Shown one piece after another: positions 7,589 through 52,013 of a stretch of DNA of 64,000 nucleotides (its first letter is position 1; every line of letters begins with the position of its first letter). The stretch is taken from the NCBI RefSeq assembly GCF_000002425.4, contig NC_037253.1:9525310-9589309 (forward strand), written 5' to 3'. The translations under genes were made by a program, and so were the position numbers. Source of the DNA: Physcomitrium patens (taxonomy: Eukaryota; Streptophyta; Bryopsida; Funariales; Funariaceae). The notes beneath the pieces were generated by a model. That model searched no databases. It was not told the origin of the DNA and was given only the letters and a program-made list of their open reading frames with translations.

Positions 7589-8644
7589 TCCATCCCTTCT
7601 AAATTTGTACATCTTCTGATATGCACCAAAAAGAATGAATGTTATGGTCGACATCATACCACTTCCTTTATATTTTTTCTTTCACGATCTATGTCTTTTT
7701 CTTCATTTGTAAAGAAATCAATATCTTCTCTAGTACTTTTAGCTATTTTGTCTTGATTTTATTGCATAATAAGTTTTATATGTTTTCTTGCAATTGGAAT
7801 CTTAAAGTGTATTCCATCTAACTTCCTTAGTACTATGTAACATTATTTAGAATATTTACAACTACATAAGGTCCAAATCAATGCTTTAAATTTTTTTATA
7901 AAGTATTATATTGATTATCCAAGCTGCTGTCATAAACAAATATCCAAACATCTTCATAAATTCTTTGAAGCCTTAATTGGTGCCGCTTATCAAATTTGTC
8001 TTTATTTTTCAACCATGACTCTTTCAAATTCACAATTACTTTTTCTATATCTTCAAGTCTCTTTTCTAGCTAACAAATTTGAACTGCAAGAAGTCCTTCT
8101 CTAGACATATTGTCTTTCCAAGGCAAAATATTCTAAGTAGATATTTATTCTTGAATTAGTATAATAGGCTTTTGTTCTTGTATCAATACTGTTGGCAAAT
8201 ATTTAATTACTGAACTATGAACAATATGGTCGGCTTATAAAGCAAATGGTAATAATCTTGACCATTCTTTTGTCCTTCATTTAGATGCTTTAATAAGTGC
8301 TTTGACTATGAGATGATGACCTCACTTACTTTTGGTATTACCTTCAAGATTATATGTTGTTGTAACTACAAGCTTAATTCCACATCTTTCAAAAAAAAAC
8401 TCTTGATTTATGTGCATCCAATTCTCTATAATTAGTAGTGATCTTTCTAATAAATCTATATCTACAAATCACATCTTCCAACAAAAATCTACAAACTCTT
8501 TTAGTGGATTTTATTCTTAGAGCTCTTCTTTCTATTTGATTAAATAAATCTTCTTATACCAAAACCAAATACCGCATCTACCATAATTCCATAGGTATAG
8601 TAAGTAGGTCTACAACTCACTTATAATATATTACAAGAGGATAT
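7589..8644 (-). pseudogene. pol: G: pol 3' end (integrase core and C-terminus) relic
   Basis: Begins with the pyrimidine mirror of the polypurine tract (TCCATCCCTTC) beside the LTR, as in E1 at 20622. It then follows the E1 DNA of 20640-21690 closely but with many stops. The region corresponds to the C-terminal DNA-binding part and the integrase core in the minus sense. It is cut by Ch1 at 8644 and resumes for 17 bp at 14774-14790, where GATAT is duplicated. Confidence 0.8.
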
Positions 8645-9056
8645 TCTCACGGACACAAAATACAGACTTGAAATCTAACAAGAAGTTCAAGAAGAAGTGG
8701 CAGAATTAGATTAAACAGATGAGTACAAGAACAACACCAGAAAGGTGAGCTAGAACTCCAAGAGATGTGTTGTCGAGATTGAAGAACCCTTCAGCCTCGA
8801 TTCCTATATATACTACTGAATAGGAAGCTTCTCGAGCTACTTCCGCTAACTAGGACGCTTCTCCAACAACTTCTACTAATTAGGAAACTTCTCGAGCAAC
8901 TTCCTAGAATCTATCAGAATATTCTAGAACCTTCTAAGAGAATCTTTAGGGAATATTCTAAGAATCTTCTAGAACCTTCTAAAGAAATCTTTAGAAAATC
9001 TTTAGAGAATATTCTAGAAGAATATTCGAAGAATCTTCCAATGTATGTCCATGACA
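8645..9056 (-). repeat. Ch1 3' LTR
   Basis: A 412-bp LTR, partner of 14362-14773. Its outer end reads TCTCACGG where the partner has TGTTACGG, so the canonical terminal dinucleotide has been lost on this side. The interior holds many overlapping GAATATTC/TTCTAGAA palindromic blocks (about 8930-9035). Confidence 0.95.
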
Positions 9057-9235
9057 TCACCTCCTCTTCTAACTTCGAGGTCTCCGAGAAGCAATGTTGT
9101 TATCAGTCAATACCAACGCAAGAAAATGAAAATCTGTCGCATCACATCCGCTATGAATTCCAATTGTTGTTCGCGAGGCAAATGATTCATCGGCCCTTGG
9201 AGCCAATGGTAGTGACCAACACCTTCAACCTCTGA
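9057..9235 (-). other. Ch1 3' untranslated region and polypurine tract
   Basis: Directly beside the LTR the element strand reads AGAAGAGGAGGTGA, a good polypurine tract. No coding signal follows up to the small frame at 9236-9460. Confidence 0.7.
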
Positions 9236-9580: not shown

Positions 9581-11152
9581 CTATCGTTGAATCGGCTTAG
9601 GTTTATGAGGATATCGTTGATGAAATTCTTGTACCTTTTTTGGTGCATTGGCAAGATTTTCGGTACGCTCCCACGTTCGTTCATTGATGTCGTATCCACT
9701 CCAATGCACTAAATACTCCAATTTTCTCCTATTACGCCGTGAATCTAGTACCTTTTCCACCTCGTATTCCTCATGGTTTTCAATTTCGATACTTGGTGGC
9801 GGACTTTGTACTCTTTGGGGAAAAGCTGACTCTCGATAAGGTTCCAACAAAGACACATGAAAGACTGGATGTACCTTCATAGTAGCTGGTAACTCCAGAC
9901 GATATGCCACCGGATTGATCTGCTTCCCGATAACAAATGGCCCTAATCTCCGATAGTCCAATTTGTCACATGGCCGCTTGGTCTTGATATTCCGTCGAAG
10001 AAGCCATACTTTACTTCCAACTTTAAAAGTAGGCGCCTCATTTCGATATTTATCTGCAGATGCCTTGTAACTCTCTTGGGCAGATTGCAATTGAAGCTTC
10101 AACGTCGCTTGAAGCTCCGATAGTTGCTTCACAAATCCTTCAACTGCTGGGTTGTTATTTGCTGAAGAACTCAATAAATCGAGCTTGGGGTGGTATCCGT
10201 AGTTGGAGAAGAATGGTGTTTGTTGAATTGACACATGAAGAGTGTTGTTGTATGCAAACTCAGCAAGCGGTAGATATGCAGTCCAATCATCTTGTTGATA
10301 GTTGATGCTGCATCGTAAATATTGCTCCAAAACTTGATTCACCCGCTCCGTTTGACCGTCAGTTTGAGGATGAAAAGCCGAAGAGAGCTTAATATCCACC
10401 TTCAATATCTCAAAGAGAGACCTCCAAAACTTGGATACAAACTGAGTACCTCGATCCGACACGATATCATCTGGTAGGCCATGATAACGATATATGTTAT
10501 CAAGAAAGAGTCTTGCGGTGTCTTCACTTGACGATGTTTTCTTGCAAGGCACGAAATGCGCCATCTTTGTAAATCGATCCACCACAACAAAGATGCTGTC
10601 AAATGAATTCGATGGCGATAGGTCCGTAATGAAGTCCATAGAAACTGAAGACCATGGTCGATGCGGAATAGGCAATGGCTGGAGAAGTCCATACGGACGA
10701 TGTCGAGGGATCTTGGATCTTGAACAAACATCACAAGAAAGAAAAAATTCCTTCACATCCTTCCACATTTGGGGCCACCAAAAATCTCGTGAAATGAGCT
10801 CCAAAGTCTTGTTGAATCCAAAATGTCCCGCAGTTGGAAAGTCGTGGCGAGATTGAAGTACTCGGAGTCGAGTTGGTCCTTTCGGGATATACAACCGCTC
10901 CTCAAAATACAGAAGATCTCCCTCCACCTTAAACTTGTCATTATCGACACGTTGTTTGATGTCAAGAGCTATAGAATCCTCAATGGTCGTAGTATGTACC
11001 TCGCTGAGGAAGCCGTCATCGATAGTTGCAACAGTAGCAAAAATCCTGAATTTTTCTGGTTTCAACAATATTGTACATTGTTGATCAAACGCTGCTTCTC
11101 CAGCCTTTGGCGCAAGATACGATCTCCTCGATAATGCGTCAGATAATCCTTG
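9581..11152 (-). CDS. pol: Ch1 integrase with chromodomain (pol part 2)
   Basis: Open from just after the TAG at 11153-11155 to the stop near 9581, in the same frame as PR-RT-RH. It holds, in order: the end of the RNase H/integrase linker (SDALSRRSYLAPK); the HHCC zinc domain (HDFPTAGHFGFNKTLELI, then CDVC); the catalytic core (MDFITDL, VVVDRFTKMAHF, SDRGTQFVSKF, TDGQTERVNQ) supplying D, D and E; the GPF-like module (KLDYRRLGPFVIG); and a C-terminal chromodomain (EYEVEKVLDSRR, LEYLVHWSGY, ERTWE; about 9611-9787). The chromodomain directs integration toward modified histones in this group. All key residues are present. The ATG at 11068 is internal, so this part needs readthrough or is simply cut off. 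Confidence 0.95.
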   Translation of the reverse strand, partial: QGLSDALSRRSYLAPKAGEAAFDQQCTILLKPEKFRIFATVATIDDGFLSEVHTTTIEDSIALDIKQRVDNDKFKVEGDLLYFEERLYIPKGPTRLRVLQSRHDFPTAGHFGFNKTLELISRDFWWPQMWKDVKEFFLSCDVCSRSKIPRHRPYGLLQPLPIPHRPWSSVSMDFITDLSPSNSFDSIFVVVDRFTKMAHFVPCKKTSSSEDTARLFLDNIYRYHGLPDDIVSDRGTQFVSKFWRSLFEILKVDIKLSSAFHPQTDGQTERVNQVLEQYLRCSINYQQDDWTAYLPLAEFAYNNTLHVSIQQTPFFSNYGYHPKLDLLSSSANNNPAVEGFVKQLSELQATLKLQLQSAQESYKASADKYRNEAPTFKVGSKVWLLRRNIKTKRPCDKLDYRRLGPFVIGKQINPVAYRLELPATMKVHPVFHVSLLEPYRESAFPQRVQSPPPSIEIENHEEYEVEKVLDSRRNRRKLEYLVHWSGYDINERTWERTENLANAPKKVQEFHQRYPHKPKPIQR

Positions 11153-13099
11153 CTATTTTCCAGGGCGGTAGGTGATAATAAAGTCAAATCGTGATAGAGA
11201 CATATTCCATCGAGCTTGACTACGATTCAAAATTCGAGCTGTCATGAAGTACTCCAAATTCTTGTGGTCCGTATAAACAGTCACTGGATGTGCAGCTCCT
11301 TCGAGGAAGTGACGCCGCTCTTGGAAGGCATCCACTATAGCAAGCAGCTCTTTGTCGTGGATCTCGTAGTTGATCTCAGCAGCAGAGAACTTTCGTGAAT
11401 AGAACGCAACTGGGTGAAGCTTCTTGTCTATGCCCATCTGTGAAAGCACAGCTCCCAAAGCAAAATCTGAAGCATCGGTCTCTAAATAGAAAGCCTTTGC
11501 AAAGTCAGGGTGTACCAAGATTGGAGCCATAGTGAATGCCGTCTTGAGATCTTGAAATGCTTTTGCTGCTTGTGATCTCCATTCAAGCTTGTCTTTGCTT
11601 GTTAGACGCGTGAGTGGTGCAGCAACTTGAGAATAATTCTTGATGAAGATCCGATAGAAGTTAGCAAATCCAAGAAAACACTGAACATCTCTAACCGTCT
11701 TCGGAACTTCCCAAGATATAATTGCTTCTACCTTTTTTGGATCCATCTTCAAGCCCTCTGTAGTCGCAATGAAGCCCAAAAATTCCATCTCATTCTGGTG
11801 AAATTGACACTTCTCCAACTTGGCGTAGAGTCCTCGTTCGCGTAGTTTTTCAAGAACCAAACAAACGTGCTTCTCATGTTCTTCTTCATTCTTGGAAAAT
11901 ATCAAAATATCATCCAGATAGATGACAACAAAGTCATCGAGGTACTCCCGAAAGATGTCGTTCATCATATGCTGAAAGACCGCTGGAGCATTGGTAAGAC
12001 CAAAAGGCATGACATTGTACTCAAAATGGCCATACCTTGTACGAAAGGCTGTCTTCCATTCATCTCCTTCTTTGATTCGCACAAGGTTGTAGGCTCCTCT
12101 TAAATCAATCTTTGTAAAAATCCTTACACGTCCAAGTTGATCTAAGAGGCCAGAGATCAAAGGTAAGGGATAGCGATTTTTCTTGGTCACCTTGTTGAGT
12201 CCTCGGTAGTCCACGCACATCCGCAGTGAGCCATCCTTTTTTTTCACGAATAGGATTGGTGCTCCAGCTGGCGACTTTGAATGTCGAATAAAATTCTTGG
12301 CTAGATTCTCATCGATGTACTTCCGCAATTCTGCCAACTCCGTCTGCGATAGGTTGTATATTGGACCAAAAGGTGGTTGCGCTCCTTCCTCTAAGTCTAT
12401 GGCACAATCATATGGTCGATGTTCCGGCAGTATATCGGCGTTCTTCTTCTGAAACACGTCTTCAAAATCCCTATATTGCTCTGGTATATTCGATGTTGAG
12501 ATATTCTCGCCGCTAGTTGGAGCTGCATAAATGACAAATGGTGCACCTTCCTTGGACGATCTTAGGAACGCTCTCGCTCCAATAAACATGGATTTCTTCA
12601 TGTAGGTTCTACCAAGAGGTTTATTATTATTTTTTTCAGGAAATGTTATCCTTCGTAGCCTCCAATCAATGGACGGATTATGATCTTCTAACCAAGAAAG
12701 ACCAAGGATAACAGGGCTTGATGGGGTTCTAATAATATTAAAAATAACGTGACTACTATGGTCCTTAAACACCACTTCTATAGGTTCTGATTCGTGGGTA
12801 ACGTTGCCTGACAATAAGGGTCGTCCATCTATCACCTCTACGTGAACAGGTTTGGACTTCTGTACTAAACGGATCTTGTGGCGTTTAGCAAACTCTTCAT
12901 CTAAAAAACAAGTAGATGCCCCCGAATCCAATAAAGCTAAAGTTTTTTGTTTTTGAGGGCCTAAAAACAAAGGAATTGTAAAACAACGGGCAGGTTGGAC
13001 AAAGAAGGAGGAACCTGATTGTTGTCGTGATATTATATTGTCCAGCCGCACGGTTCCTACTGTGGTTGGGCGTCGTCGTTTTCCGGAATCATCGCACTT
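11153..13099 (-). CDS. pol: Ch1 protease, reverse transcriptase, RNase H (pol part 1)
   Basis: The frame is open from 13099 and overlaps the end of gag by about 40 nt in the -1 frame. The first in-frame start is only a GTG (13051), so translation probably comes by frameshift from gag. Order: protease (ALLDSGASTCFLDEEF, intact D-S-G); RT (VKKKDGSLRMCVDYRGLN, KIDLRGAYN, MPFGLTNAPAVFQ, VVIYLDDILIFS with intact Y-L-D-D); RNase H (LETDASDFALGAVLSQ, YEIHDKELLAIV, VYTDHKNLEYF). It ends at TAG after FIITYRPGK, where relatives continue into integrase. The stop is best read as a Gln codon mutated CAG to TAG. It is followed by CAA, part of the leaky-stop consensus. Confidence 0.95.
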   Translation of the reverse strand, partial: KCDDSGKRRRPTTVGTVRLDNIISRQQSGSSFFVQPARCFTIPLFLGPQKQKTLALLDSGASTCFLDEEFAKRHKIRLVQKSKPVHVEVIDGRPLLSGNVTHESEPIEVVFKDHSSHVIFNIIRTPSSPVILGLSWLEDHNPSIDWRLRRITFPEKNNNKPLGRTYMKKSMFIGARAFLRSSKEGAPFVIYAAPTSGENISTSNIPEQYRDFEDVFQKKNADILPEHRPYDCAIDLEEGAQPPFGPIYNLSQTELAELRKYIDENLAKNFIRHSKSPAGAPILFVKKKDGSLRMCVDYRGLNKVTKKNRYPLPLISGLLDQLGRVRIFTKIDLRGAYNLVRIKEGDEWKTAFRTRYGHFEYNVMPFGLTNAPAVFQHMMNDIFREYLDDFVVIYLDDILIFSKNEEEHEKHVCLVLEKLRERGLYAKLEKCQFHQNEMEFLGFIATTEGLKMDPKKVEAIISWEVPKTVRDVQCFLGFANFYRIFIKNYSQVAAPLTRLTSKDKLEWRSQAAKAFQDLKTAFTMAPILVHPDFAKAFYLETDASDFALGAVLSQMGIDKKLHPVAFYSRKFSAAEINYEIHDKELLAIVDAFQERRHFLEGAAHPVTVYTDHKNLEYFMTARILNRSQARWNMSLSRFDFIITYRPGK

Positions 13100-14058
13100 C
13101 TAGTCTTGACAGGGTGCCAATTTTGCTTCTTTGGGCAATTTCCAACCTTGTGACCTTCTTCTCCACAGTACAAACATAACCCTTCCTTCATACGCCGTTT
13201 CTTCTCTGTTGGAGTAAGAGATTGGACACGCGCTGTGTCGATTTGCATGTCTGTTGCCTCCGAATGTGAGTTTAAGCTATTTGCAGACATAGTCACGTCG
13301 TAATGAGTCATTTGGTGTCTTGGACGTTGGTCTTGGCGACGCTGGAATAGGCGGTTGTCACACTTTACAGCTTGGCTAATAGCTTCGTTGAGCGTTTGAG
13401 GATCAGGAAGAGATAACAGCAAGTCCTTCACATCATCCTTCAAGCCCCAATAAAACTGACTCACCAACGCCTCTTCACCCAAATTAATGTCACTTGCCAA
13501 TTGTCTGAAATCCGAGGCATAGACTGATGCAGAGCGTGTTCCTTGTCGTAGCGATCGGATCTTTGTTGTAGTCCATCGAACTTTATCATGCTCGCCAAAT
13601 GCTTCTGCAAACGCCTCCAAGAATATTTCAAAGTTGCTCAGGATTGGCGATCGCTTCTCGAACGAGGGAGTAAACCAAGACAGAGCTTGTGCTGTAAGCA
13701 AGGTTCCAACAAGCCCAACACGCGCTTCCTCCGTCGGATAACGTTCGGGCTGTAAAATTGTTATCAACCTGATTTGGTTGACAAAACCTCGAAACTTGGA
13801 ACGAGTTTCATCAAACTTATCCGGAAGACTAACTCGAGGCTCCTTTCGTTGTAGGACTACTCGATCTTGTTGAAATGGAGGTAGAACTACTTCTTCTGGC
13901 GCAGAAGTTTGAGGCTGATATGCTTTAGATGGCGCTATCCCAGATGCTCCATTGTTATGGAGTCCTACCATGACTCCTTCGATCTCTGTTGTCCTATGTG
14001 ACAACGAGGCAAGAGCATTTATGATGGCGTCTAGTTTGGATTCCAAACTTTCAGCCAT
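13057..14058 (-). CDS. gag: Ch1 Gag
   Basis: An intact 333-codon frame from the ATG at 14058. A short coiled N-terminus (MAESLESKLDAIINALASL) precedes the retrotransposon gag domain (KFRGFVNQIRLI, ALSWFTP, ASDFRQLASDINLGEEALVSQFYWGLKDDVKDLL). One CCHC knuckle lies near residues 295-308 (CLYCGEEGHKVGNC). Gag forms the particle that packages the RNA. It ends with TAG at 13057-13059, and pol overlaps in the -1 frame. The stretch G-GAA-AAC at 13078-13084 in the overlap is a weak, non-consensus candidate shift site. Confidence 0.93.
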   Translation of the reverse strand: MAESLESKLDAIINALASLSHRTTEIEGVMVGLHNNGASGIAPSKAYQPQTSAPEEVVLPPFQQDRVVLQRKEPRVSLPDKFDETRSKFRGFVNQIRLITILQPERYPTEEARVGLVGTLLTAQALSWFTPSFEKRSPILSNFEIFLEAFAEAFGEHDKVRWTTTKIRSLRQGTRSASVYASDFRQLASDINLGEEALVSQFYWGLKDDVKDLLLSLPDPQTLNEAISQAVKCDNRLFQRRQDQRPRHQMTHYDVTMSANSLNSHSEATDMQIDTARVQSLTPTEKKRRMKEGLCLYCGEEGHKVGNCPKKQNWHPVKTRSAMIPENDDAQPQ

Positions 14059-14326
14059 TTTAACGTCTTAACCTTCAGCTAACCTTCAGAAAGAAGAAAA
14101 AAGAGTTTTGACAAGAGGACAATATTGGTTCAGAGGAGAGTACTCCGCAACCTCTAAAACGCCTTAAGACTCCAAGATGAGGGGTAATCCACTCTCTCCA
14201 AGAAGAATAAGGCTCCAATATTGAGAAAGAAGAGATATCAGTTTAGAGGAGGGTAATCCGCAACCTCTAAAACACTAGCACACCTTCAAGAAGAGGGGTA
14301 ATCCACTCTCTAACAAGAAGGAACTA

Positions 14327-14338
14327 GCTCTGATACCA
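14327..14338 (-). other. Initiator tRNA-Met-like sequence, displaced from the Ch1 LTR
   Basis: The element strand reads TGGTATCAGAGC, the classic plant initiator-Met primer site, but 23 nt inside the LTR border instead of touching it. It may be a fossil primer site or chance. The sequence that touches the LTR is the self-complementary one at 14348-14361. Confidence 0.5.
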
Positions 14339-14347
14339 GTGAAAATA

Positions 14348-14361
14348 CAGTCTCGACAAAC
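14348..14361 (-). other. Ch1 primer-binding site complementary to its own LTR
   Basis: The element strand reads GTTTGTCGAGACTG, touching the 5' LTR at 14362. Twelve of these bases (TTGTCGAGACTG) occur on the plus strand within the LTR at 14487-14498. The RNA copy of the LTR can therefore pair perfectly with this site over 12 nt. Confidence 0.8.
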
Positions 14362-14773
14362 TGTTACGGACACAAAATACAGACTTGAAATCTAACAAGA
14401 AGTTCAAGAAGAAGTGGCAGAACTAGATTAAACAGATGAGTACAAGAACAACACCAGAAAGGTGAGCTAGAACTCCAAGAGATGTGTTGTCGAGACTGAA
14501 GAATCCTTCAGCCTCGACTCCTATATATACTACCGAATAGGAAGCTTCTCGAGCTACTTCCGCTAACTAGGACGCTTCTCCAACAACTTCTACTAATTAG
14601 GAAACTTCTCGAGCAACTTCCTAGAATCTATCTGAATATTCTAGAACCTTCTAAGAGAATCTTTAGGGAATATTCTAAGAATCTTCTAGAACCTTCTAAA
14701 GGAATCTTTAGAGAATCTTTAGAGAATATTCTAGAAGAATATTCGAAGAATCTTCCAATGTATGTCCATGACA
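14362..14773 (-). repeat. Ch1 5' LTR with TATA box and predicted RNA 5' end
   Basis: A 412-bp LTR starting TGTCATGG and ending CCGTAACA in element orientation. The TATA box TATATATA is at 14522-14529. The self-priming segment CAGTCTCGACAA (14487-14498) begins 31 nt downstream, where a plant TATA box would place the transcription start. The U3 part (14630-14750) is dense in GAATATTC and TTCTAGAA blocks resembling heat-shock-element spacing, which could be regulatory. Confidence 0.93.
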
Positions 14774-14790
14774 GATATATGGGATGCAAC
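14774..14790 (-). pseudogene. G: 17-bp continuation after Ch1
   Basis: GATATATGGGATGCAAC continues the G integrase DNA (compare GGATACGTAGGATGAAG near 21692 in E1), beginning with the duplicated GATAT. The left LTR of Ch2 follows directly. Confidence 0.75.
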
Positions 14791-15344
14791 AGTCAATGAC
14801 AAGAACATGATAAAGATAAATAAACAAGTGAGACTTTTCTCAAAAAAAGATGACAAAATAGAAATCACTTGATATGTATATTAAGAAAGAAATTGCAATG
14901 GCTATTGCCAAAAGCCAAGAAAACTAGAGACCCTTGAAACTAGACTGGAAGCAAGAAAAGAGTTGACAAGAGTGAAGAAGGCTTCACTCTTGTCTCTATA
15001 TATATTATCTAATTAGAGGCTACATGGTGATGTTCTATAGGACCTCCAATATGTGCTGACTTTGTAGGACACATGCCTTGACTTACAAGGCAAGTTTTTC
15101 TACATGTGGGCCACATAGTTAACTTGGGCTTTAAGCTAACAACATGTGTGGCACATGGCCAACTTATTGACCATGTTTTTAATCCAAAAAATCAATTAAA
15201 GACACCTATAAAGTCAAAGCAGCAACTATAAAGCTTCTAGGAAGCTTCTATAGCAAATATTATAGAATTAACTTACTTTTATCTACTTTTACTTACTTCT
15301 ATCTATTTATACATATAATTATTGGCTTACATACGTATGTCCAT
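14791..15344 (-). repeat. Ch2 3' LTR (main part)
   Basis: Partner of 51460-52013. The last 4 bp (GACA) were separated by solo LTR C and lie at 17134-17137. It holds the perfect 12-nt self-priming segment GTTGACAAGAGT at 14962-14973 and a TATATATA box near 15000. Confidence 0.9.
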
Positions 15345-17129
15345 TGTTGTAATATGTGAAGTCTTGCTTGAGAATATTCTGGGACCTGGTTGTGGAAGAA
15401 AGAATAGAAATTGGAATAATAAAATTCTAATTCTAATAGAATACTAACAATGCTCTAATGAGTCCATAATAATGGTAAGCAAGCTTAATTAAATTCAAAA
15501 AAATTCAAAGAAATTTCAAACAAACAATAAGAATTCTTAAAGAAATATTAGAAGGATCACAAATATCACTCAAATACATCTCAATTCAATCTTAATTTAA
15601 TTCTAGTTAAAATCCTATTTAACTTCATTCAAACTTTAGACCAAAAATAATTGAATCTTTAATCCTAATAAAATTCTAAACCCTAAATCAAACCCTAAAC
15701 AAACCTTAAATCAAACCCCAATCAAATCCTAAACCAAATCCTAACCAAACCCTAAAACAAATCCTAAATCCTAAATCAAACCCTAAATCCTAAATCAAAT
15801 TCTAACCAAATCTTAATCCAAATCCTAAATCCTAAACCAAATCCTAATCCAAACCCTAAACCCTAAACCAAATCCTAACTAAGTCCTAAATCTTAAATCA
15901 AATCCTAACCAAATCCTAAACCAAACCCTAATCCAAACCCTAAATCCTAAATTCTAAACCAAATCCTAACCAAATCCTAAATCCTAAATAAATCCTAAAA
16001 AAATCCTAAACTAAACACTAAATTCTAAATCAAATCCTAATCTAAACCGTAAACCCTAAACCAAACCCTAACCAAATCCTAAACCAAATCCTAGTAATTC
16101 CTACAATAGATTTAAACCTCAATAACTAATGAATAAATCATTGATTTAAACTCAAATTTTTCATACTTCTAAAATCATAAGTTAAAAACAAGCACAAAAA
16201 AATTGAAAATGATCGGAATTACCAAATTGACGATAACCTCAAAATGTGATCAGGTATTGGCCGACCTCCTTCACCAATCTTGATGCCAATCTTCTAGAGC
16301 CAGTATCTCTCTTTTGTGTTGTTCGATTGATCTCAAAATTCTCACACACAAAGAAAATCAAGTCTTATATCCTTTCACATAAGTTTCACTTCAATCCAAC
16401 TAATAGATTACAAAAAATCTTAAAAACCTCCACTAGACCTAAAATTCTACTTTCTAAGACCTTGACCCATTTAAACCTCAATTTTCCTCAATTCAACTAT
16501 TAGATCGAGCTTAAATTCACAACACATATTAAACACAACTACAAACATAAACCCACAAAATTTCACCTATAGATCTAATACAAAACTCTTAAAATCACCC
16601 AAAACATAAATCCTATTTTATTTCATAAAATCCAAGTCATCTGGAACAAACCTTGATTTTGCAAAGCTCTTACAAAGCCAAAACAACTCCAAATCATCCA
16701 AAATGAATACCTATAGAAATTCTATTCAATTTGCTATCGAATCCCACTCTTCGATCTGCCAAAGATTCTTGGAGTCCTTGTCAAGACTCAGTTTTGTGTC
16801 CCAAGGTCTGATTTCGACCCTGCTTCATAACTGGCCCTCTTTGGATATCAATATCTAGTTTTTCTAAGTAATTTTTACTAGAATTTACTCTTAACTTCTT
16901 ACTAAAGATTTTTATATTATTTATTTTTCCAATCTACCTTATTTTGCTTTATTTATGATCCTACAAAGTAAGTAGAAGTCATCTTTCTAAAAAAATAGCA
17001 TTGCTACTAAAAGTTTTACTATCTTCCTATCTTTTATCCATATTTTTCTACTTTTTCTTTTAACTTAGCTCTTCTATAATAAGATCCATATTATCATCTT
17101 TCACTATATAGTCATGTTACAATATGTCA
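15345..17129 (-). mobile_element. C: solo LTR, 1.8 kb, with telomere-like interior
   Basis: Starts TGTTGTAATATGTG and ends GTTACAATATGTCA, the family pattern of TGTCGTATTACG…GTTACAACACGACA. Flanks CCAT (15341-15344) and CTGT (17130-17133) fit a 4-bp duplication with two transitions. It sits 4 bp from the end of the Ch2 3' LTR. A degenerate CCTAAA-rich array fills 15661-16093. No internal element region adjoins it. Confidence 0.8.
15661..16093. repeat. Telomere-like degenerate array in solo LTR C
   Basis: About 430 bp built almost wholly from AAATCCTAAACC / AAACCCTAAATC units of about 7 and 12-13 bp, related to the plant telomere CCCTAAA. The units are irregular. F carries a similar array in the opposite sense, so it belongs to the LTR. 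Confidence 0.9.
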
Positions 17130-20809: not shown

Positions 20810-22162
20810 TCATTGTTTAAATATTTTTACTCGTTTCCCTGCAATTGGTATTTTTAATTTTGTACCATCTAACTCCCGTAATGAGTAAGTCGCACTATCA
20901 TGAACTGTTGTTACCACATATGGTCCAAACCAACATTTTGAGAATTTCCGCAAAGTATTATGTTGATTATCCAGACTATTGTCATAAACAAGTACCCAGT
21001 CACCTTCCTCGATTGCTTTTGGTCTCAATCGATGTTGCTTATCGAATTGCGCCTTGTTTTGTAACCTTACTCTTTTTAACCTTCCCAATGCTATCTGGAC
21101 ATCTTCCATTCTTTGCTCCAATTGTCGAATCCTAATAGCCAGAAGTTCTTCTCTTGTCAATCCATCTTCCCATAGTAGCATACTCCAAGTAAGTACCTTT
21201 TCTTCAATCGGCATAATTGGTTTTTGACCTGTCATAAGTTCTACTGGCATATATCTTGTCACCGAGCTATGTGTTGTTCGATCAGCCCATAATGCAAATG
21301 ACAAAAGCCGTGGCCACTCTTTAACTTTCCCATTACAAGCTTTAACCAATGCTTTCACAATCGGTGGGTGACCACGTTCGCTTTTTGCATTCCCTTCTGG
21401 ATTATAAACAGTAGTCAGTGATAGTTTAACTCCACATCTTTCAAAGAACTTACAAGCTTCTTGCGCATTTAATTCTCCACGATCTGCAGTGATTTTTCCC
21501 ACGCATCCGTAGTGGCAAATGACATCTTCAAGCAAAAACCTACAAATCCCCTCTGTAGATTTTGTCTTCAATGCTCTTCCTTCTACTAGATTTGATAAAT
21601 CTTCACGAGCTAAAATCAAATATCTCATCTGCCATAACCCAACCGGCATAATAACCAAATCAACAACCCATTTAAAATGAATAGCCAGAGGATACGTAGG
21701 ATGAAGACCATCTCGATGCCGGATATTAGAATACGATTGACAGATTTCACATGACTCTACAAATGAGAGCACATCTCGATACATATTTTTCCACCAATAT
21801 CGTTCCTTGAGTTTAGCAAAAGTAGCCCAGATTCCACTATGCCCTGCCCATAAACTATCATGAAACTCCTTTAATAATTTTAGTTTTTCTTCCCTTTTGC
21901 CTATCACTCCTTGTGGCATCTCAATTCCTTTCTTCGGTCTCTTCCATAAGAATCCATCTCGAAGTAAAAATCCATATGTTTTTTTTCTTATTTGTTTGAA
22001 TTTTTCTGTAGACCAATTTCCCTGCTTAGTCAAGGTATTCAAGTAATGACCAATATCCAATAATTCTCCTTCATAAGACTCTTCAAGAAATAGCTTGTCT
22101 TCTCTGTTGAGATTTGATATTGAATAGAATTTCGATCCGACATCATCAATGTCTTCAACCAT
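20810..22162 (-). pseudogene. pol: E1 integrase
   Basis: A 450-codon frame. N-terminal HHCC zinc domain (FHDSLWAGHSGIW, then CEICQ); catalytic core with D in FKWVVDLVIM, D in ITADRGELN and E in NAKSERGHPP, giving the D-D-E triad; the signature AREDLSNLVEGRAL; then ALWADRTTHSSVT and YMPVELMTGQ; and a C-terminal part with DWVLVYD, FGPYVV and DGTKLKIPI. Integrase inserts the cDNA. The domain looks intact, but the polyprotein upstream is broken. The core resembles fungal Ty3-type integrases (AREDLS) more than common plant lineages, to my recollection. Confidence 0.92.
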
Positions 22163-22186
22163 TTCGTCCTCCCTCTCGTATCTTGC

Positions 22187-22612
22187 TCAAGATAGCATGT
22201 CTGCTACTAAATTGTCTTTTCCAATAATATGCTTAAATTCTGGATTTAGTGACTTAATATAAGCAATCCATCTCAACATCGCAATATCTGGCGTCGAACA
22301 GTTAATAATCATTCCAAGTAATGGCAAGCAATTTGTTTCAATTACTACTACTGCCTCAATCAAATAGTCCTTTTCAGCTTTCATAGCCAAAACGACTCCC
22401 CAAAGTTCTCTTTTGACTTGTGAATATGCACGCTGACGAATACTTAAAACTTTAGCCCCAAATCGAACTGCAAATCTACTTCCATTTGAATCATCTTGAC
22501 CCACAGTCCATCCAAAGGCAATTGGACTAGTGTCTACAGTAAGAATCACTGGTCTATTGCACTTATAATCAACCTTCCTCAATATTGGAGGTGACATCAA
22601 TAATTTCTTCAA
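22187..22612 (-). pseudogene. pol: E1 RNase H
   Basis: Starts after a TGG-to-TGA change that ends the RT frame. Motifs: TVDTSPIAFGW (first Asp), SQVKRELWG (Glu), then ETNCLPLL where E0 has ETDCLPLL, so the third catalytic acid is Asn, and GKDNLVADMLS (last Asp). It ends at a TGA that is AGA in E0. Inactive. Confidence 0.9.
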
Positions 22613-22642
22613 TCTTTGTATTGCCTGAATATGCCTTTTTTC

Positions 22643-23980
22643 TCATTTAAATCGGTAATCCTTGCGTAACAGTTCATATAATGGATCCGCTATGTGAGCA
22701 AAATGAGGGATCCAGATTCGATAAAATACACATGCACCCAAAAACCTGCAAACCTCTGTTAAAGAATCACAATCCTCTTTCATCCTTCCAATTGCATCAA
22801 CTTTAGTCGGATCTGGTTTTCTTCCGTAAGATCCACATAAATGTCCAACAATTACAACCTCTCGTACTCCAAATACGGACTTCATATCCGATAATGTAAG
22901 ATGAACTTCTCCAAGCCGAGTTAAAATCTTTTCACAATCTTGTATATGATCAACAACATATTTGCGACACCCCTTCGTATCTAAAGTTTCATCCTTGTCT
23001 CCTTCTCTGCACCCTTTTATAGGAACATCATTCAGAAAAGGCATAGTCTTTTCCGGAATAAAATCTCTCAATACCTTATTCATCCCATTCATCATATGCG
23101 CAACTCAGTTGGTCGCGCCTTGAGGAAGAGTGCACATTCTAACCAATCCAAGCGGTGTCCTCATCGTTGTCATATCTCTACTTCCTTCGGCAAGTTGAAA
23201 TTGATCATAACCTGAATACAAATCACCCATTGAATAGATTGCCCTTCCAGCAAACGCCTCAGCAAATTCATCTACAATAGGTCCAATTCCTGCATTCCTG
23301 ATAGTTACAGCATTCACCGGCTGCATATCTTGAATAAACCGTAGTGACCCATTCTTCTTAGGTACCGTAAACCATCGACTAGAATACGGTGCAAATGAAG
23401 GTTCCAATATTTTCATCTTTATCTTTTCATTTAATAGTTCCACCAATTTAGGTAAATGTGCCCTCGGTACTGGAATCGGTCTTAGATTCCAAGGTACATG
23501 CGGTACAGTGAAGATAACCATAGGTGTTATAATATTTGGATCCACACACCCAATTTCATGAGATTCGAAGGCAAACGATCTACCTTGTTTAGCCAACATC
23601 TTTTTGAAGCAAGTAATTTCTTCTGGCAATAAAGAACCATCAGAACCAATCTTCAATTCTTCAAAAGTCTCTTCAGTAAACTGATGTCCAATACTCATTG
23701 GATCTCTGAAACTTGCTTCTTTTGATGCTTCTCCTATTTGTTCTTTAGAATCCTCTGGTAATGGTCTGGCAACAGGCTTTACCTTCTTATCTGCCATTTT
23801 ATATCTCGTCTCTACAGTGACTTCTAGTGCTTGAAAAGATTCAAGCATGGTATAAACCTCTCTTGAATGAATCTCAACAATCTTATCATTATCTCCTAAC
23901 CCAATAGATGTAATCAATTCCAATGAATCTTCCAGTCCATTTTCTTCATAAACACCTAAAATCCTCTCATCATCTTGCAA
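22643..23980 (-). pseudogene. pol: E1 reverse transcriptase
   Basis: Two frames (23105-23980 and 22643-23095) in register, split by a TCA-to-TGA change after QGATN. Motifs: PSFAPYSSRWFTVPKKNGS and RFIQDMQPVN (fingers), GDLYSGYDQFQL, TPLGLVRMCTLPQGATN (palm), then MPFLNDVPIKG at the active site, where Asn replaces the first Asp of F-x-D-D. EVVIVGHLCGSYGRKPDP and FLGACVFYRIWIPHFAHI match the thumb. The substitution should abolish polymerisation. Confidence 0.93.
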
Positions 23981-24267
23981 TGTACCTAACTTGCATAATT
24001 ATCCTTCAATATTATATAATCTTTTTCTTTCTTTTCTTTTAAAATCATCAACTTTTTTATACATAATATTTCCATTCTCCAATATACCAATAAAACTCGC
24101 ATCAAAGGCACCTTCATTTCGCGAGAGTACCTCCTCTTTTGTACCTCTATAATCTCGCTTTACAGTGGTACCTCCCCAAAATCCTTAAATCCTTCAACAA
24201 TCTTTGGCAATGGTTTCTCCCTCAACCTATCTCGATTCCGTTCATGGTTAGGAGGTATTGTTAGAAA

Positions 24268-26532
24268 TTATACAGCTTTCCTCCCATCTTCGCTCCATAC
24301 CCTTGCATAAGCAGAACCATCGTCAAGTTCTTTTGTTTCCATCCGTATTGCCGTGATATAAGGTTGTCCTAAAATCAACGGATAAGACGTTGTATCTTGA
24401 ACGAAGAAATGTTGCTCCGTCGCAACATCCCCAATCCGAATTTTGACATCTGGACAAGCTCCATATAATTCGCCCTGTGTGTTATTAGCTGCTCGTATTG
24501 TCCATCCATGTTCCATATCAATTGGCCATTTTTGCTTCTTATAAAGATCTTTAGACATGAGATTTATTTCAGAACCATGGTCGACCAAAGCAACTATTGG
24601 TTCTTCTATATCTCCTACCTTCACCAATACCTCAGTAGTTGCCCTTGCCCAATGCTTTTTAGTATAATGGCTCAAAGTTTCCATTTCCTTGTCACTAGAA
24701 TCTTTGAAACGTACTCGCTGATTATACCCATTCTTTTCATTTGTTGGTTGCTTGTAACCAATATCAACCTCTTCTTCATCTCTACATATTCTTGCATCAA
24801 TAGCATGACTCATTCCAGTTTCGCCCATTAATTGCCTCTTTCGTTTAATGCTGTCAATGATAACATCATGAAACTCCTTCTTTGTAATTCCCAAGACTTC
24901 TTTCAATGTGAATTCTACCTTAGCGTTTAATATACGTTCTTCCAACACCCCTTTCAAATTTGTTGCCGCTTCAATGTCAGAAAGTAGCTTATAAGCAATT
25001 GATTTGCCCTTATCTTTTGTCTCCGTTGTTTTTTCTCCCAATGATACTGAGGTATCCTTTACAGGCAATTCTTGTGAAGCTGCCTCTCGAGCCTTGTCTC
25101 CTCGAGTTTGCCTCTTAAAAGAATTTCCTTCTCTAGTATCATCAAAATTTCCTCATCTTTTTTCTTCCATCAAAGCTTCATGTTGGCTCTTAGCAATATA
25201 TGCATGAACTGAAAGAGACTCAACAGGATCCTCCCAACCTGTTCTACCTCGTATTGTAGCTGCAGTTCTCAATAACGCTTCCCGAGGTAATTTCCCTTCT
25301 TGCATTGTAGAAATGACAGAAGCCCAAAACTCACTAGTTTTCGTACTTCCACCAATTTCATCATCTACTCTAGCACCATAACTTGCACTTTCTCGTGCTA
25401 CTGTTTCATGCTCTTTTAAGTAATCTTGAACCAATGCTCTCATTCCTCCCTTGCCAAAATTGGTTTGAAGAAGATCCTCTCTATCTTTCAATGCTATCTT
25501 CCCATCTTTCCAGCAAATAATTCCCTGCCGTATCATATTATTAAATTTATTGCAATCTTTTCTAGTGTGTGAAGCAGCATCACACCAAATGCATCTTTGT
25601 ACATATCCTTGTTTTGAAACATTCTTCAAATTATTTATAGAAGTATTCTCTTCAAGTTTTGCCAATTTGATTTGAAGATCTCGCATTCCTCGTATAATTT
25701 CTTCCATACCCATATCTGCTTTCTTTGACAAGGATGTCGAAGGTTGAACTATAGGCATTGTTGGTGGTGTTGTACATAGTGGAGCTTTGGGTGCTTGTAT
25801 TGTTTTCGGAATATTGCTCCTATCCTTCCTCCTTTCTTTTTTTGTAAGCAATCCCACCGCATCTTCAACGTTTTTCCACTTCGTTGTCAATCCTTCATCT
25901 TCTTCTTTGTCTTCAAGAAGGGGTTCTAATTTTCCTTGCAATTCTCCATCAGCAGCTTGAAGAAATAGATCAACTTTGTTCGACTCTAATGTCAATTTTT
26001 CTACCTTCGATAATTGAGAGTACTGCCTCTCAAATTCCCTTAGTAGCTCTGTTGCTTGCAAATTCTTATTGGGCCGTTCAATCCATCCCAGAAACAGCTT
26101 CTTAGTAATGCGATCAGCATCTTCCAAAAAATATTCGTCTTTCAATGCATGTGAAAAATCCTCCCATGAATTCCCACAACGATCCATAATCGATGTAATG
26201 TGGTCCCTTATCTCCGGTATCGTGGCAAGTCCAAATAGTGCAACCATTTTCTTCTTAGAAACCCGATTTAATTCCATTTCACGAACATAACATCTTAAAT
26301 ACCTTGAAATATTCCTCCCATCAAATTGATCAATTTTATTGACCACTGCTTGCAATGCTTTGGTTGCCAAAGATTCCTTTCGATCATTGCTTTGCTGTTG
26401 CTGCATTGACAATGAGAAGGCTTGAAACAAACTAGCAATAGATGGATCCATGTGCATATCTTGTCCTTTAGAAGACTCCCCACCAGAAACTCCTCCCAAA
26501 AATCCTTCAAAATTTTTATTTTCGTTTTCCAT
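24268..26532 (-). pseudogene. gag: E1 Gag and protease
   Basis: I take the start as the ATG at 26532 (MENENKNFEGF); an upstream in-frame ATG at 26556 lies in the leader. The capsid region (SRYLRCYVREMELNRV, FSHALKDEYF, LLREFERQYSQLS) is followed by one intact CCHC knuckle (CIWCDAASHTRKDC). A CGA-to-TGA change near 25152 separates the C-terminal part (24268-25068). That part holds the protease (ALVDHGSEINLM, with His in the D-x-G triad, and LILGQPYI). It ends at TAA after RKAV, where E0 has CAA. RT then follows in the -1 frame. Confidence 0.92.
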
Positions 26533-26583
26533 AAAAATAAAGATAAAATCAACCAAAATCCAATACCTTCTACCTCAAGCTTT

Positions 26584-33138: not shown

Positions 33139-33210
33139 AAAAGTGGTCAACCCGACGTGAAAGCTTGAGGTAGAAGGTATTGGATTTTGGTTGATTTTAT
33201 CTTTATTTTT

Positions 33211-35475
33211 ATGGAAAACGAAAATAAAAATTTTGAAGGATTTTTGGGAGGAGTTTTTGGTGGGGAGTCTTCTAAAGGACAAGGTATGCACATGGATCCG
33301 TCTATTGCTAGTATGTTTCAAGCCTTCTCACTATCAATACAACAACAGCAAAGCAATGATCGAAAGGAAGCTTTGGCAACTAAAGCATTGCAAGCAGTGG
33401 TCAATAAAATTGATCAATTTGATGGGAGGAATATTTCAAGGTATTTAAGATGTTATGTTCGTGAAATGGAATTAAATCGGGTTTCTAAGAAGAAAATGGT
33501 TGCACTATTTGGACTTGCCACGATACCGGAGATAAGGGACCACATTACATCGATTACGGATCGTTGTGGGAATTCATGGGAGGATTTTTCACATGCATTG
33601 AAAGACGAATATTTTTTGGAAGATGCTGATCGCATTACTAAGAAGCTGTTTCTGGGATGGATTGAACGGCCCAATAAGAATTTGCAAGCAACAGAGCTAC
33701 TAAGGGAATTTGAGAGGCAGTACTCTCAATTATCGAAGGTAGAAAAATTGACATTAGAGTCGAACAAAGTTGATCTATTTCTTCAAGCTGCTGATGGAGA
33801 ATTGCAAGGAAAATTAGAACCCCTTCTTGAAGACAAAGAAGAAGATGAAGGATTGACAACGAAGTGGAAAAACGTTGAAGATGCGGTGGGATTCCTTACA
33901 AAAAAAGAAAGGAGGAAGGATAGGAGCAATATTCCGAAAACAATACAAGCACCCAAAGCTCCACTACGTACAACACCACCAACAATGCCTATAGTTCAAC
34001 CTTCGACATCCTTGTCAAAGAAAGCAGATATGGGTATGGAAGAAATTATACGAGGAATGCGAGATCTTCAAATCAAATTGGCAAGACTTGAAGAGAATAC
34101 TTCTATAAAAAATTCGAAAAATGTTTCAAAACAAGGATACGTACAAAGATGCATTTGGTGTGATGATGCTTCACACACTAGAAAAGATTGGAATGAATTT
34201 AATAATATGATACGACAAGAAATTATTTGCTGGAAAGATGGGAAAATAGCATTGAAAGATAGAGAGGATCTTCTTCAAACCAATTTTGGCAAGGGAGGAA
34301 TGAGAGCATTAGTTCAAGATTACTTAAAAGAGCATGAAACAGCAGCACGAGAAAGTACAAGTTATGGTGCTAGAGTAGATGATGAAATTTGTGGAAGTAC
34401 GAAAACTAGTGAGTTTTGGGCTTCTGCCGTTTCTACAATGCAAGAAGGGAAATTACCTCGAAAAGCGCTATTAAGAACTGCAGCTACAATACGAGGAAGA
34501 ACAGGTTGGGAGGATCCTGTTGAGTCTCTTTCAGTTCATGCATATATTCCTAAGAGCCAACATGAAGCTTTGATGGAAGAAAAAAGACGAGGAAATTTTG
34601 ATGATACTAGAGAAGGAAATTCTTTTAAGAGGCAAACTCGAGGAGACAAGGCTCGAGAGGCAGCTTCACAAGAATTGCCTGTAAAGGATACCTCAGTATC
34701 ATTGGGAGAAAAAACAATGGAGACAAAAGATAAGGGCAAATCAATTGCTTATAAGCTACTTTCTGACATTAAAGCGGCAACAAATTTGAAAGGGGTGTTG
34801 GAAGAACGTATATTAAACGCTAAGGTGGAATTCACATTGAAAGAAGTCTTGGGAATTACAAAGAAGGAGTTTCATGATGTTATCATTGACAGCATTAAAC
34901 GAAAGAGGCAATTAATGGGCGAAACTGGAATGAGTCATGCTATTGATGCAAGAATATGTAGAGATGAAGAAGAGGTTGATATTGGTTACAAGCAACCAAC
35001 AAATGAAAAGAATGGGTATAATCAGCGAGTACGTTTCAAAGATTCTAGTGACAAGGAAATGGAAACTTTGAGCCATTATACTAAAAATCATTGGACAAGG
35101 GCAACTACTGAGGTATTGGTGAAGGTAGGAGATATAGAAGAACCAATAGTTGCTTTGGTCGACCATGGTTCTGAAATAAATCTCATGTCTAAAGATCTTT
35201 ATAAGAAGCAAAAATGGCCAATTGATATGGAACATGGATGGGCAATACGAGCAGCTAATAACACACAGGGCGAATTATATGGAGCTTGTCCAGATGTCAA
35301 AATTCGGATTGGGGATGTTGCGACGGAGCAACATTTCTTCGTTCAAGATACAACGTCTTATCCGTTGATTTTAGGACAACCTTATATCATGGCAATACGG
35401 ATGGAAACAAAAGTACTTGATGATGGTTCTGCTTATGCAAGGGTACGGAGCGAAGATGGGAGGAAAGCTGTATAA
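33211..35475 (+). CDS. gag: E2 Gag and protease, long uninterrupted ORF
   Basis: Open for 754 codons from the ATG at 33211 (MENENKNFEGF); an upstream in-frame ATG at 33187 is less likely. Order: Gln-rich N-terminus (SIQQQQSNDRKEA), capsid (SRYLRCYVREMELNRVSKKK, CGNSWEDFSHALKDEYFLED, LLREFERQYSQLS), knuckle CIWCDDASHTRKDW with the last Cys changed to Trp, a long charged linker, and protease (ALVDHGSEINLMSKDLY … LILGQPYI). The single D-H-G motif implies a homodimeric aspartic protease. The frame stops at TAA after RKAV, where E0 encodes Gln. Confidence 0.92.
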   Translation: MENENKNFEGFLGGVFGGESSKGQGMHMDPSIASMFQAFSLSIQQQQSNDRKEALATKALQAVVNKIDQFDGRNISRYLRCYVREMELNRVSKKKMVALFGLATIPEIRDHITSITDRCGNSWEDFSHALKDEYFLEDADRITKKLFLGWIERPNKNLQATELLREFERQYSQLSKVEKLTLESNKVDLFLQAADGELQGKLEPLLEDKEEDEGLTTKWKNVEDAVGFLTKKERRKDRSNIPKTIQAPKAPLRTTPPTMPIVQPSTSLSKKADMGMEEIIRGMRDLQIKLARLEENTSIKNSKNVSKQGYVQRCIWCDDASHTRKDWNEFNNMIRQEIICWKDGKIALKDREDLLQTNFGKGGMRALVQDYLKEHETAARESTSYGARVDDEICGSTKTSEFWASAVSTMQEGKLPRKALLRTAATIRGRTGWEDPVESLSVHAYIPKSQHEALMEEKRRGNFDDTREGNSFKRQTRGDKAREAASQELPVKDTSVSLGEKTMETKDKGKSIAYKLLSDIKAATNLKGVLEERILNAKVEFTLKEVLGITKKEFHDVIIDSIKRKRQLMGETGMSHAIDARICRDEEEVDIGYKQPTNEKNGYNQRVRFKDSSDKEMETLSHYTKNHWTRATTEVLVKVGDIEEPIVALVDHGSEINLMSKDLYKKQKWPIDMEHGWAIRAANNTQGELYGACPDVKIRIGDVATEQHFFVQDTTSYPLILGQPYIMAIRMETKVLDDGSAYARVRSEDGRKAV

Positions 35476-35585
35476 TTTCTAACAATACCTCCTAACCATG
35501 AACGGAATCAAGATAGGTTGAGGGAGAAACCATTGCCAAAGATTGTTGAAGGATTTAAGGATTTTGGGGAGGTACCACTGTAAAG

Positions 35586-37100: not shown

Positions 37101-37556
37101 GAAGAAAGGCATATTCAGGAAATACAAAGATTGAAGAAATTATTGATGTCACCTCCAATATTGAGGAAGGTTGATTATAAGTGCAATAGACCAGTGATTC
37201 TTACTGTAGACACTAGTCCAATTGCCTTTGGATGGACTGTGGGTCAAGATGATTCAAATGGAAGTAGATTTGCAGTTCGATTTGGGGCTAAAGTTTTAAG
37301 TATTCGTCAGCGTGCATATTCACAAGTCAAAAGAGAACTTTGAGGAGTCGTTTTGGCTATGAAAACTGAAAAGGACTATTTGATTGGGGCAGTAGTAGTA
37401 ATTGAAACAAATTGCTTGCCATTACTTGGAATGATTATTAACTGTTCGACGCCAGATATTGCGATGTTGAGATGGATTGCTTATATTAAGTCACTAAATC
37501 CAGAATTTAAGCATATTACTGGAAAAGACAATTTAGTAGCAGACATGCTATCTTGA
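37101..37556 (+). pseudogene. pol: E2 RNase H
   Basis: TVDTSPIAFGW, then KREL followed by TGA where E1 has Trp. It continues from 37353 with VVVIETNCLPLL, the third catalytic acid being Asn as in E1, and GKDNLVADMLS, closing at the TGA shared with E1. Confidence 0.9.
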
Positions 37557-37580
37557 GCAAGATACGAGAGGGAGGACGAA

Positions 37581-51446: not shown

Positions 51447-51459
51447 ACTCTTGTCAACC
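51447..51459 (-). other. Ch2 primer-binding site complementary to its own LTR
   Basis: The element strand reads GGTTGACAAGAGT, touching the 5' LTR at 51460. GTTGACAAGAGT occurs on the plus strand exactly in the 3' LTR (14962-14973) and with one transition in the 5' LTR (51631-51642). The RNA copy can thus pair with this site over 12 nt. Confidence 0.78.
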
Positions 51460-52013
51460 TGTCAAGGACAAGAATATGATAAAAATAAATAAATAAATAA
51501 AACTTCTCTCAAAGAAAGATGACAAAATAGAAATAACTTGATATGTATATTAAGAAAGAAATTGGAATGGCTATTGCTAAAAGCCAAGAAAACTAGAGAC
51601 CCTTGAAACTAGACTGGAAGCAAGAAAAGAGTTGATAAGAGTGAAGAAGGCTTTACTCTTTTCTCTATATATACTATCTAACTAGAGGCTACGTGGCAAT
51701 ATTCTATAAGACCTCCAATATGTGTTGACTTTATAAGCCACATGCCTTGACTTATAAGGCAAGTTTTTCTACGTATGAGCCACATAGTTAGCTTGGTGTT
51801 CAAGTTAACAACATGTGTGGCACATGGCCAACTTGTTGACCACGTTTCTAATCCAAAAAGTTAATTAAAGACACTTATAAAGTCAAAACAGCATCTATGG
51901 AGCTTCTAGGAAGCTTTTATAGTAAATATTATAGAATTAACTTACTTTTATCTATTTTTACTTACTTCTACCTATTTATATAATTACTAGCTTATATGTG
52001 TATGTCTATGATA
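51460..52013 (-). repeat. Ch2 5' LTR with TATA box
   Basis: A 554-bp LTR from TGTCAAGGACAAG to GTCTATGATA on the plus strand. TATATATA lies at 51666-51673, 31 nt upstream (element sense) of the priming segment, the same spacing as in Ch1. Confidence 0.9.

Follow-up and report, generated by a model that had tools for sequence, protein, structure and literature searches.

The question raised by this locus is how the retrotransposon Ch1, which lies on the minus strand of the window (the whole stretch of 64,000 nucleotides, or 64 kb, analysed here), primes its reverse transcription. The initial annotation proposed that the 5' end of the element's own RNA serves as primer, as in yeast Tf1, and supposed an angiosperm host in which such a case would be new. 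As to the mechanism, the proposal is strongly supported by a fixed geometry and by covariation across families, and self-priming by the RNA 5' end is very probably the best explanation of the sequences, but the supposed host and novelty are to be given up. The host is a moss, Physcomitrium patens, to whose proteins another element of the window (33169-35472) is matched, the best 20 of its 113 matches all being P. patens proteins (73-93% identity). In addition, self-priming was already predicted by Neumann et al. (2019) for most plant Tcn1-clade elements, which are found in mosses and club-mosses and group with Tf1/sushi, and for the TAR lineage of Ty1/copia including Houba and Osr-1 (PMC6317226). 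The kind of priming is already known, and what is added here is comparative evidence, an 11-nt limit, a hairpin and possible fern-associated members.

The element Ch1 and its relatives

Ch1 is best explained as a moss member of the Tf1/sushi (plant Tcn1-like) branch of chromodomain Ty3/gypsy elements, and its features are collected in Table 1. The LTR boundary at 14362, on which the whole argument depends, is independently fixed by the 412-nt LTR pair and the flanking 5-bp GATAT duplication; the two LTRs show 10 differences over 412 nt, and a plain BLAST alignment of them is 4 nt short because the last bases of the 3' LTR are mutated. The element strand shows, one after the other, TATATATA (14529-14522), A14497, the LTR end at 14362, GT and TTGTCGAGACT (14359-14349), and the first T of TATATATA lies 32 nt before A14497. 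The integrase carries a chromodomain at its C-terminus (PF00385, residues 463-513, E 4e-16). Neither a tRNA gene nor an Rfam family at or above threshold was found within the 64-kb window. Among 7958 homologues scored, the best 120 are mostly unnamed environmental proteins, the named ones being from frogs, fishes, fungi, Closterium and two angiosperms. A reverse transcriptase (RT) tree of 23 rows, with long branches and without named rows for Tf1, sushi or Tcn1, unites Ch1 and ten relatives of environmental origin with the fungal and vertebrate rows (support 98/98) and leaves the two angiosperm rows and Closterium outside this fork.

Table 1. Coordinates of Ch1, of the related element B and of a second B-type LTR in the window
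Feature	Position	Strand	Basis or remark
5' LTR of Ch1, 412 nt	14362..14773	-	repeat comparison, target site duplication (TSD)
3' LTR of Ch1, 412 nt	8645..9056	-	repeat comparison; one change in its primer copy
TSD GATAT, upstream side of Ch1	14774..14778		
TSD GATAT, downstream side of Ch1	8640..8644		
TATA box TATATATA of Ch1	14522..14529	-	
U3 arm (13 nt), hairpin across predicted start	14506..14518	-	loop 14502-14505, other arm 14489-14501
Predicted RNA 5' end, 11-nt putative self-primer AGTCTCGACAA	14487..14497	-	+1 at A14497, placed by distance from TATA
Putative self-priming PBS TTGTCGAGACT	14349..14359	-	2 nt beyond LTR end; base 12 (14348) not conserved
tRNA-iMet-type plant PBS string TGGTATCAGAGC	14327..14338	-	23 nt displaced from LTR
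Ch1 leader with ~85-nt duplication	14122..14320	-	14235-14320 and 14122-14205, 81%
Ch1 gag frame (Retrotrans_gag, Ty3_capsid, DUF4939)	13057..14067	-	domain matches
Ch1 pol frame 1 (protease, RT, RNase H)	11153..13099	-	domain matches; in-frame stop at end
Ch1 pol frame 2 (integrase: H2C2, rve, SH3_Tf2-1; chromodomain)	9581..11152	-	domain matches
Polypurine tract adjoining Ch1 3' LTR	9057..9070	-	by eye
5' LTR of element B	51460..52013	-	outer end by eye
Primer of element B, ACTCTTATCAA	51632..51642	-	
PBS of element B, TTGACAAGAGT	51447..51457	-	2 nt beyond its LTR
Primer ACTCTTGTCAA in second B-type LTR (~14791-15350)	14963..14973	-	complementary throughout to B's PBS

Relatives for comparison were obtained inside and outside the moss genome. 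Element B belongs to a second moss family, and Ch1 is inserted beside a B-type LTR (14774-15350) with intact hairpin and primer, two related families being nested there. Outside the moss, a scan of prokaryote genome contigs gave 15 contaminating chromovirus loci, and eight of them (L001, L003, L004, L005, L006, L008, L011 and L014) have a 5' LTR end and start region on one contig; these eight come from two records, L001 from one and the other seven from one metagenome-assembled genome (MAG), and do not count as eight genomes independent of one another. The closest relative is L001 (89% in the protease-RT-RNase H frame), and its 5' R start and PBS are identical to those of Ch1 within a surrounding LTR-leader alignment of 80% identity. 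Scans of viral contigs gave no relative.

Complementarity, its register and its limit at base 11

The 12-nt complementarity without mismatch reported in the initial annotation is exact, since TTGTCGAGACTG occurs in the 64 kb only at 14348-14359 (minus strand) and 14487-14498 (plus strand), and a third copy with one mismatch, at 8770-8781, is the equivalent site in the 3' LTR. With up to one mismatch allowed, 0.14 matches to TTGTCGAGACTG are expected by chance in the 64-kb window, and three were reached in 0 of 100 shuffles; any 11-nt inverted repeat at such spacing appeared in 8 of 2000 dinucleotide shuffles of the Ch1 region. Fixation of the match across copies had been proposed as a check. 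Through a gag-only query, 40 places were scored of 2352 first-look candidates and the 5' ends of the other 39 were read; these are the best-matching copies and probably young. The complement is present in most of them: the primer is intact in 37 of 39, the PBS likewise in 37 of 39, and 35 of 39 pair 11/11, PBS bases 1-11 being changed in 2 of 429 cells. In total 75 Ch1-type copies (76 with the L080 copy) and about nine of B type were read, and among the 75 the PBS base 12 (14348) departs from G in 24 (A in 23, C in one) and is G in the remaining 51. Because of this variability, the conserved complementarity is 11 nt, not 12. The constraint ends at base 11, where a primer starting at the predicted A14497 would end, and this equals the length of the Tf1 primer, which consists of bases 1-11 and is released by a cut between bases 11 and 12 (PMC7175516). 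An earlier sample (40 places scored of 1292 first-look candidates), with the self-PBS in 39/39 and full 11/11 pairing in all of these, versus the iMet-type string in 30/39, was set aside because its query contained the primer and the self-PBS, and the gag-only sample was used instead.

The same arrangement recurs in the relatives. In all nine tabulated elements the PBS begins 2 nt after ...ACA, an offset that was preset in the tabulating finder and was given identically by an unconstrained search in its six element matches, and +1 is located 30-34 nt after the first T of TATA (9/9). Pairing is 11/11 in seven of the nine, 10/11 in B and 7/11 in L003. In the same register, 7/8 outside loci pair 11/11; the exception, L003, carries a family primer in its 3' LTR, which may point to a mixed contig or to decay of the copy. 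No such signature was found in the other seven outside loci (L002, L007, L009, L010, L012, L013 and L015), six of which have little sequence upstream of the match, and L015 has no LTR pair despite 3 kb upstream; L002, with a match that begins at base 2, was covered by the blind scan described below and not by the unconstrained search. The B family was searched by homology to the LTR and leader of B in 20 stretches of 10 kb near, not at, known copies, and its ten alignments pair at 11, 11, 11, 11, 11, 10, 10, 10, 6 and 5 positions (10-11/11 in 8/10). The two low alignments and one of 11/11 (L079 plus strand, 68% identity) stop 6 nt or less after the PBS position, with their leaders unaligned; 3' or solo LTRs may lie behind the two low ones. 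One B-family copy, L082, has a pair with both sides changed, and one older Ch1-like copy pairs 10/11.

Four primer classes are distinguished, namely AGTCTCGACAA (Ch1, L001), ACTCTTRTCAA (B family), AAGGYGAACAA (L004, L005, L006, L011, L014) and (A)CTCTTGATCAA (L008), from all of which the 5' primer copy of L003 diverges. With L003 left aside, a primer matches the PBSs of other classes at 4-8/11, and values are high mainly within its own class. Over seven distinct rows both sides changed in 8 of the 11 pairs and one side only in none of the 11; the covariation score was 0.693 versus 0.203 in shuffles (0/500), with weaker measures at 4/500 and 10/500, and 93.5% of the 77 cells pair, falling to 26-41% when the partner is slid. 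Complementarity had played a part in finding six of these seven rows, and in one row the primer of a B-type LTR is combined with the PBS of another B copy; the covariation test is therefore supportive rather than unbiased.

A blind scan, in which 340 kb were searched for the combination of TATA, primer and CA-NN-PBS, recovered elements of the Ch1 and B families and missed L008. It also gave matches of 10-11/11 outside element ends in L063, L065, L070, L073, L074 and L075 (11/11 in L065 and L074), which are not counted as support, and in three controls of 340 kb each the matches at ≥10/11 numbered 9, 15 and 27, overlapping TATA matches not being collapsed; because of both, a single match of the scan proves little. 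In predicted folds from +1 to beyond the PBS, the primer lies on the PBS with a mean probability of 0.80-0.98 in 8/9 elements and of 0.32 in L003, the z-scores are modest (-2.2 to +0.7) and the overall stability is unremarkable. As judged by eye, a second stem of the three-duplex "pretzel" type, formed by post-primer sequence and the LTR end, is seen in L004, L005, L006 and L008 and is less clear in Ch1 and L001, and a third stem is not established.

Proposed self-priming and other explanations

The complementarity, its register, its covariation across families, the 11-nt limit and its near-fixation in the copies read are established directly, at the level of sequence. In the mechanism proposed on these grounds, the Ch1 transcript would begin with A14497 and anneal through its first 11 nt (AGUCUCGACAA) to the PBS 2 nt beyond the 5' LTR, the RNase H of the element would cut after base 11, and the freed 3' OH would prime minus-strand strong-stop DNA, so that the cDNA end would carry 2 extra bases. 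Furthermore, plus-strand synthesis would copy the primer into the new PBS, and the PBS would be rewritten from the RNA 5' end in each cycle, which would account for its exact Watson-Crick match to the primer. Counted against self-priming are the pairing of L003 at only 7/11, the modest fold z-scores, the iMet-type 12-mer that is exact in 31/39 copies, and the Selaginella element SM-Tcn1, for which Novikova et al. (2010) reported neither a tRNA PBS nor self-priming (PMC2864245).

The initial annotation had overlooked a tRNA site of TGG type, the iMet-type string TGGTATCAGAGC at 14338-14327, 23 nt beyond the LTR. The string is named as a PBS elsewhere (PMC7215508). It is a plant PBS string usually ascribed to tRNA-Met, and it fits tRNA-iMet. 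tRNA priming needs TGG for the CCA end of the tRNA. As for the initial annotation's refuting case, a tRNA whose 3' end fits the string beside the LTR, no tRNA ending in CCA offers such a match to a site that starts with G. That tRNA-iMet primes at this site, the self-complementarity being RNA structure only, is nevertheless very unlikely, even though the match to the standard plant PBS string is exact over 12 nt and the string is 12/12 in 31 and 11/12 in 8 of the 39 gag-sampled copies, hence at least 11/12 in all; the idea of a one-copy oddity was rejected, the string being family-wide in the Ch1 copies read. An iMet PBS of the Tekay/CRM/Reina type stands at the edge of the 5' LTR, but the 12-nt match of Ch1 sits 23 nt away and would leave a 23-nt cDNA tail for the integrase to remove. 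Moreover, no such site was found in L001 or in the 32-34 nt after the PBS of the other outside loci, and the TGG needed for the CCA end is missing in the B-family leaders, which mostly read CAATATCAGAGC at this position, and in the older Ch1-like copy (AGATATCAGAGC). The B family suggests that a copy-rich family without TGG can still transpose. Nine of 75 copies read TAG instead of TGG (G to A at 14337), on two backgrounds; since the C of the opposite strand is in a CHG context, 14337 is likely a methylation-deamination hotspot, and these variants, in which recurrent deamination is suspected, were not used as proof. Being displaced, absent from the outside loci as far as these were covered and devoid of TGG in the second family, the iMet-type string probably does not serve as the main primer site of Ch1; it is regarded as either a relic or an auxiliary site, or else as a leader motif that converged on the PBS string.

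A joint use of both sites, or a role of the iMet-type string as an auxiliary tRNA-binding element, is unlikely. Among the Ch1 copies read, both sites are close to fixation, and the 9-mer TATCAGAGC lies at about the same place in B-family leaders, but changes within the iMet site (8/468 cells) compared with the leader beyond (17/2223) reveal no extra conservation, and the terminal TGG is not conserved between the families. Site-wise conservation of the string is uninformative, most changes probably post-dating insertion. The 9-mer recurs 23-26 nt beyond the LTR in the two moss families (for B in L064, L071, L079, L080 and L082), and the preceding TGG does not, since the B copies read mostly CAATATCAGAGC. 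Element B itself has CAATATTACAGC, which was taken at one time as a decayed iMet PBS and then as unrelated leader, readings dropped in view of the other B copies. It is extremely unlikely that the PBS copy is a by-product of the inverted repeat at the promoter, i.e., of the hairpin of U3 arm and primer, with no role in priming: the U3 arm has nearly the same sequence as the PBS, but the PBS tracks the primer exactly, with 77 of 77 pairs Watson-Crick in the seven full-pairing elements, whereas the U3 arm tolerates G-U pairs and mismatches; L008 has no U3 arm, and yet its PBS pairs 11/11. Nor would a by-product account for the constant 2-nt gap at the LTR end. Finally, loose versions of the complementarity do arise in the control scans and at six non-element loci, as described above, but chance has a practically negligible probability, since any 11-nt repeat is found in 1-20 of 2000 shuffles per element and the same register recurs in independent families; the covariation and the pairing kept in the copies likewise count against chance.

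The U3:R hairpin and comparison with known systems

The predicted start is spanned by a U3:R hairpin whose arms covary, a feature less expected than self-priming itself. In 8/9 elements, L008 being without it, the predicted start lies inside an inverted repeat of 10-13 bp with a 4-nt loop, having two mismatches in B, three in the 5' copy of L003 and one in L006. In ten sequences (L008 and the 5' copy of L003 left out), 113 of 120 arm pairs are Watson-Crick, 4 are G-U and 3 mismatched, the pairs having been counted directly as MAFFT misaligned the set; a conservation row labelled "U3 arm" (14514-14503) overlaps the true arm only in part and was not used. The hairpin is predicted to be more stable than the duplex of primer and PBS in 7/8 elements, in L006 by only 0.4 kcal/mol. 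With R repeated, the primer would be present at both ends of the RNA, and the 3' copy would be locked with the U3 arm in a hairpin of 12-13 bp with a 4-nt loop; the 5' end would lack the U3 arm because transcription would start inside the hairpin. U3 arm, primer and PBS would then evolve as a three-way covarying unit. A question that arises here is what keeps the 3' primer copy from priming, and as a tentative model, somewhat doubtful as yet, the hairpin at the RNA 3' end might be a switch which lets the PBS capture and cleave only the 5' primer copy and which shields the strand-transfer acceptor. A literature search made without the full Tf1 papers gave no earlier description of the U3:R hairpin, and it is not claimed as unpublished.

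Ch1 has the C-terminal chromodomain, the RT grouping and the PBS complementary to the predicted RNA 5' end (11/11) by which Tf1/sushi elements are recognized, and self-priming is held to be common to this group (PMC10085805). It has been demonstrated for fission yeast Tf1 and inferred elsewhere (PMC7175516, PMC10085805), including Cryptococcus Tcn1, for which it is proposed (PMC7175516). Like Ch1, Tf1 and Tf2 of Schizosaccharomyces pombe have the first 11 nt of their RNA complementary to the PBS at the 5' LTR, a chromodomain integrase and an SH3_Tf2-1 domain; unlike them, Ch1 lives in a moss, has gag and pol in different frames, a 2-nt gap between LTR and PBS and an iMet-type string in its leader, and self-priming, demonstrated for Tf1, is predicted for Ch1 from sequence. 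The predicted U3:R hairpin is described here for Ch1. The plant Tcn1-clade chromoviruses of mosses and club-mosses, likened here by description, share with Ch1 the host group, the chromodomain, the RT grouping and the predicted self-priming, although the majority are described without a tRNA PBS and Ch1 has a displaced one. RLG1, the most abundant LTR element of P. patens, is also a chromodomain gypsy element very abundant in the moss (PMC7466625), again compared by description. With Sushi-ichi and other vertebrate Tf1/sushi elements the likeness lies in the vertebrate RTs of Ch1's supported group; their hosts are vertebrates. A moss family with more than 1000 candidate copies, together with relatives that bring four covarying primer classes, makes the plant case directly testable in a model moss by available methods for RNA ends and cDNA, and the signature, a PBS matching the RNA 5' start exactly with a sharp end at base 11, could serve to call self-priming from genome sequence.

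Some observations on the source records are added. L001 (CADCWO010000091.1), filed under a Synechococcales cyanobacterium, encodes a moss-type retrotransposon, and this reference genome is probably contaminated with eukaryotic DNA. In an uncultured Trichormus MAG (ERR2144891), binned as a cyanobacterium, Tcn1-like retrotransposons are found on nine contigs (L002-L008, L011 and L014); since the symbiont of Azolla bears the name Trichormus, these may be fern elements, outside the moss and club-moss range reported for plant Tcn1. The ends of two of the contigs share the same 55 bases (1-55 equal to 5146-5200 in L004 and 1-55 equal to 5211-5265 in L008), as in circular single-LTR assemblies, and are either an assembly artefact or extrachromosomal circles. 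In the window itself, two copies of one moss Ty3-type element, 20813-26574 (minus) and 33169-38570 (plus), lie in opposite orientation around a centre at about 28-30 kb, and the GC skew changes sign near 28-30 kb, at the centre between them.
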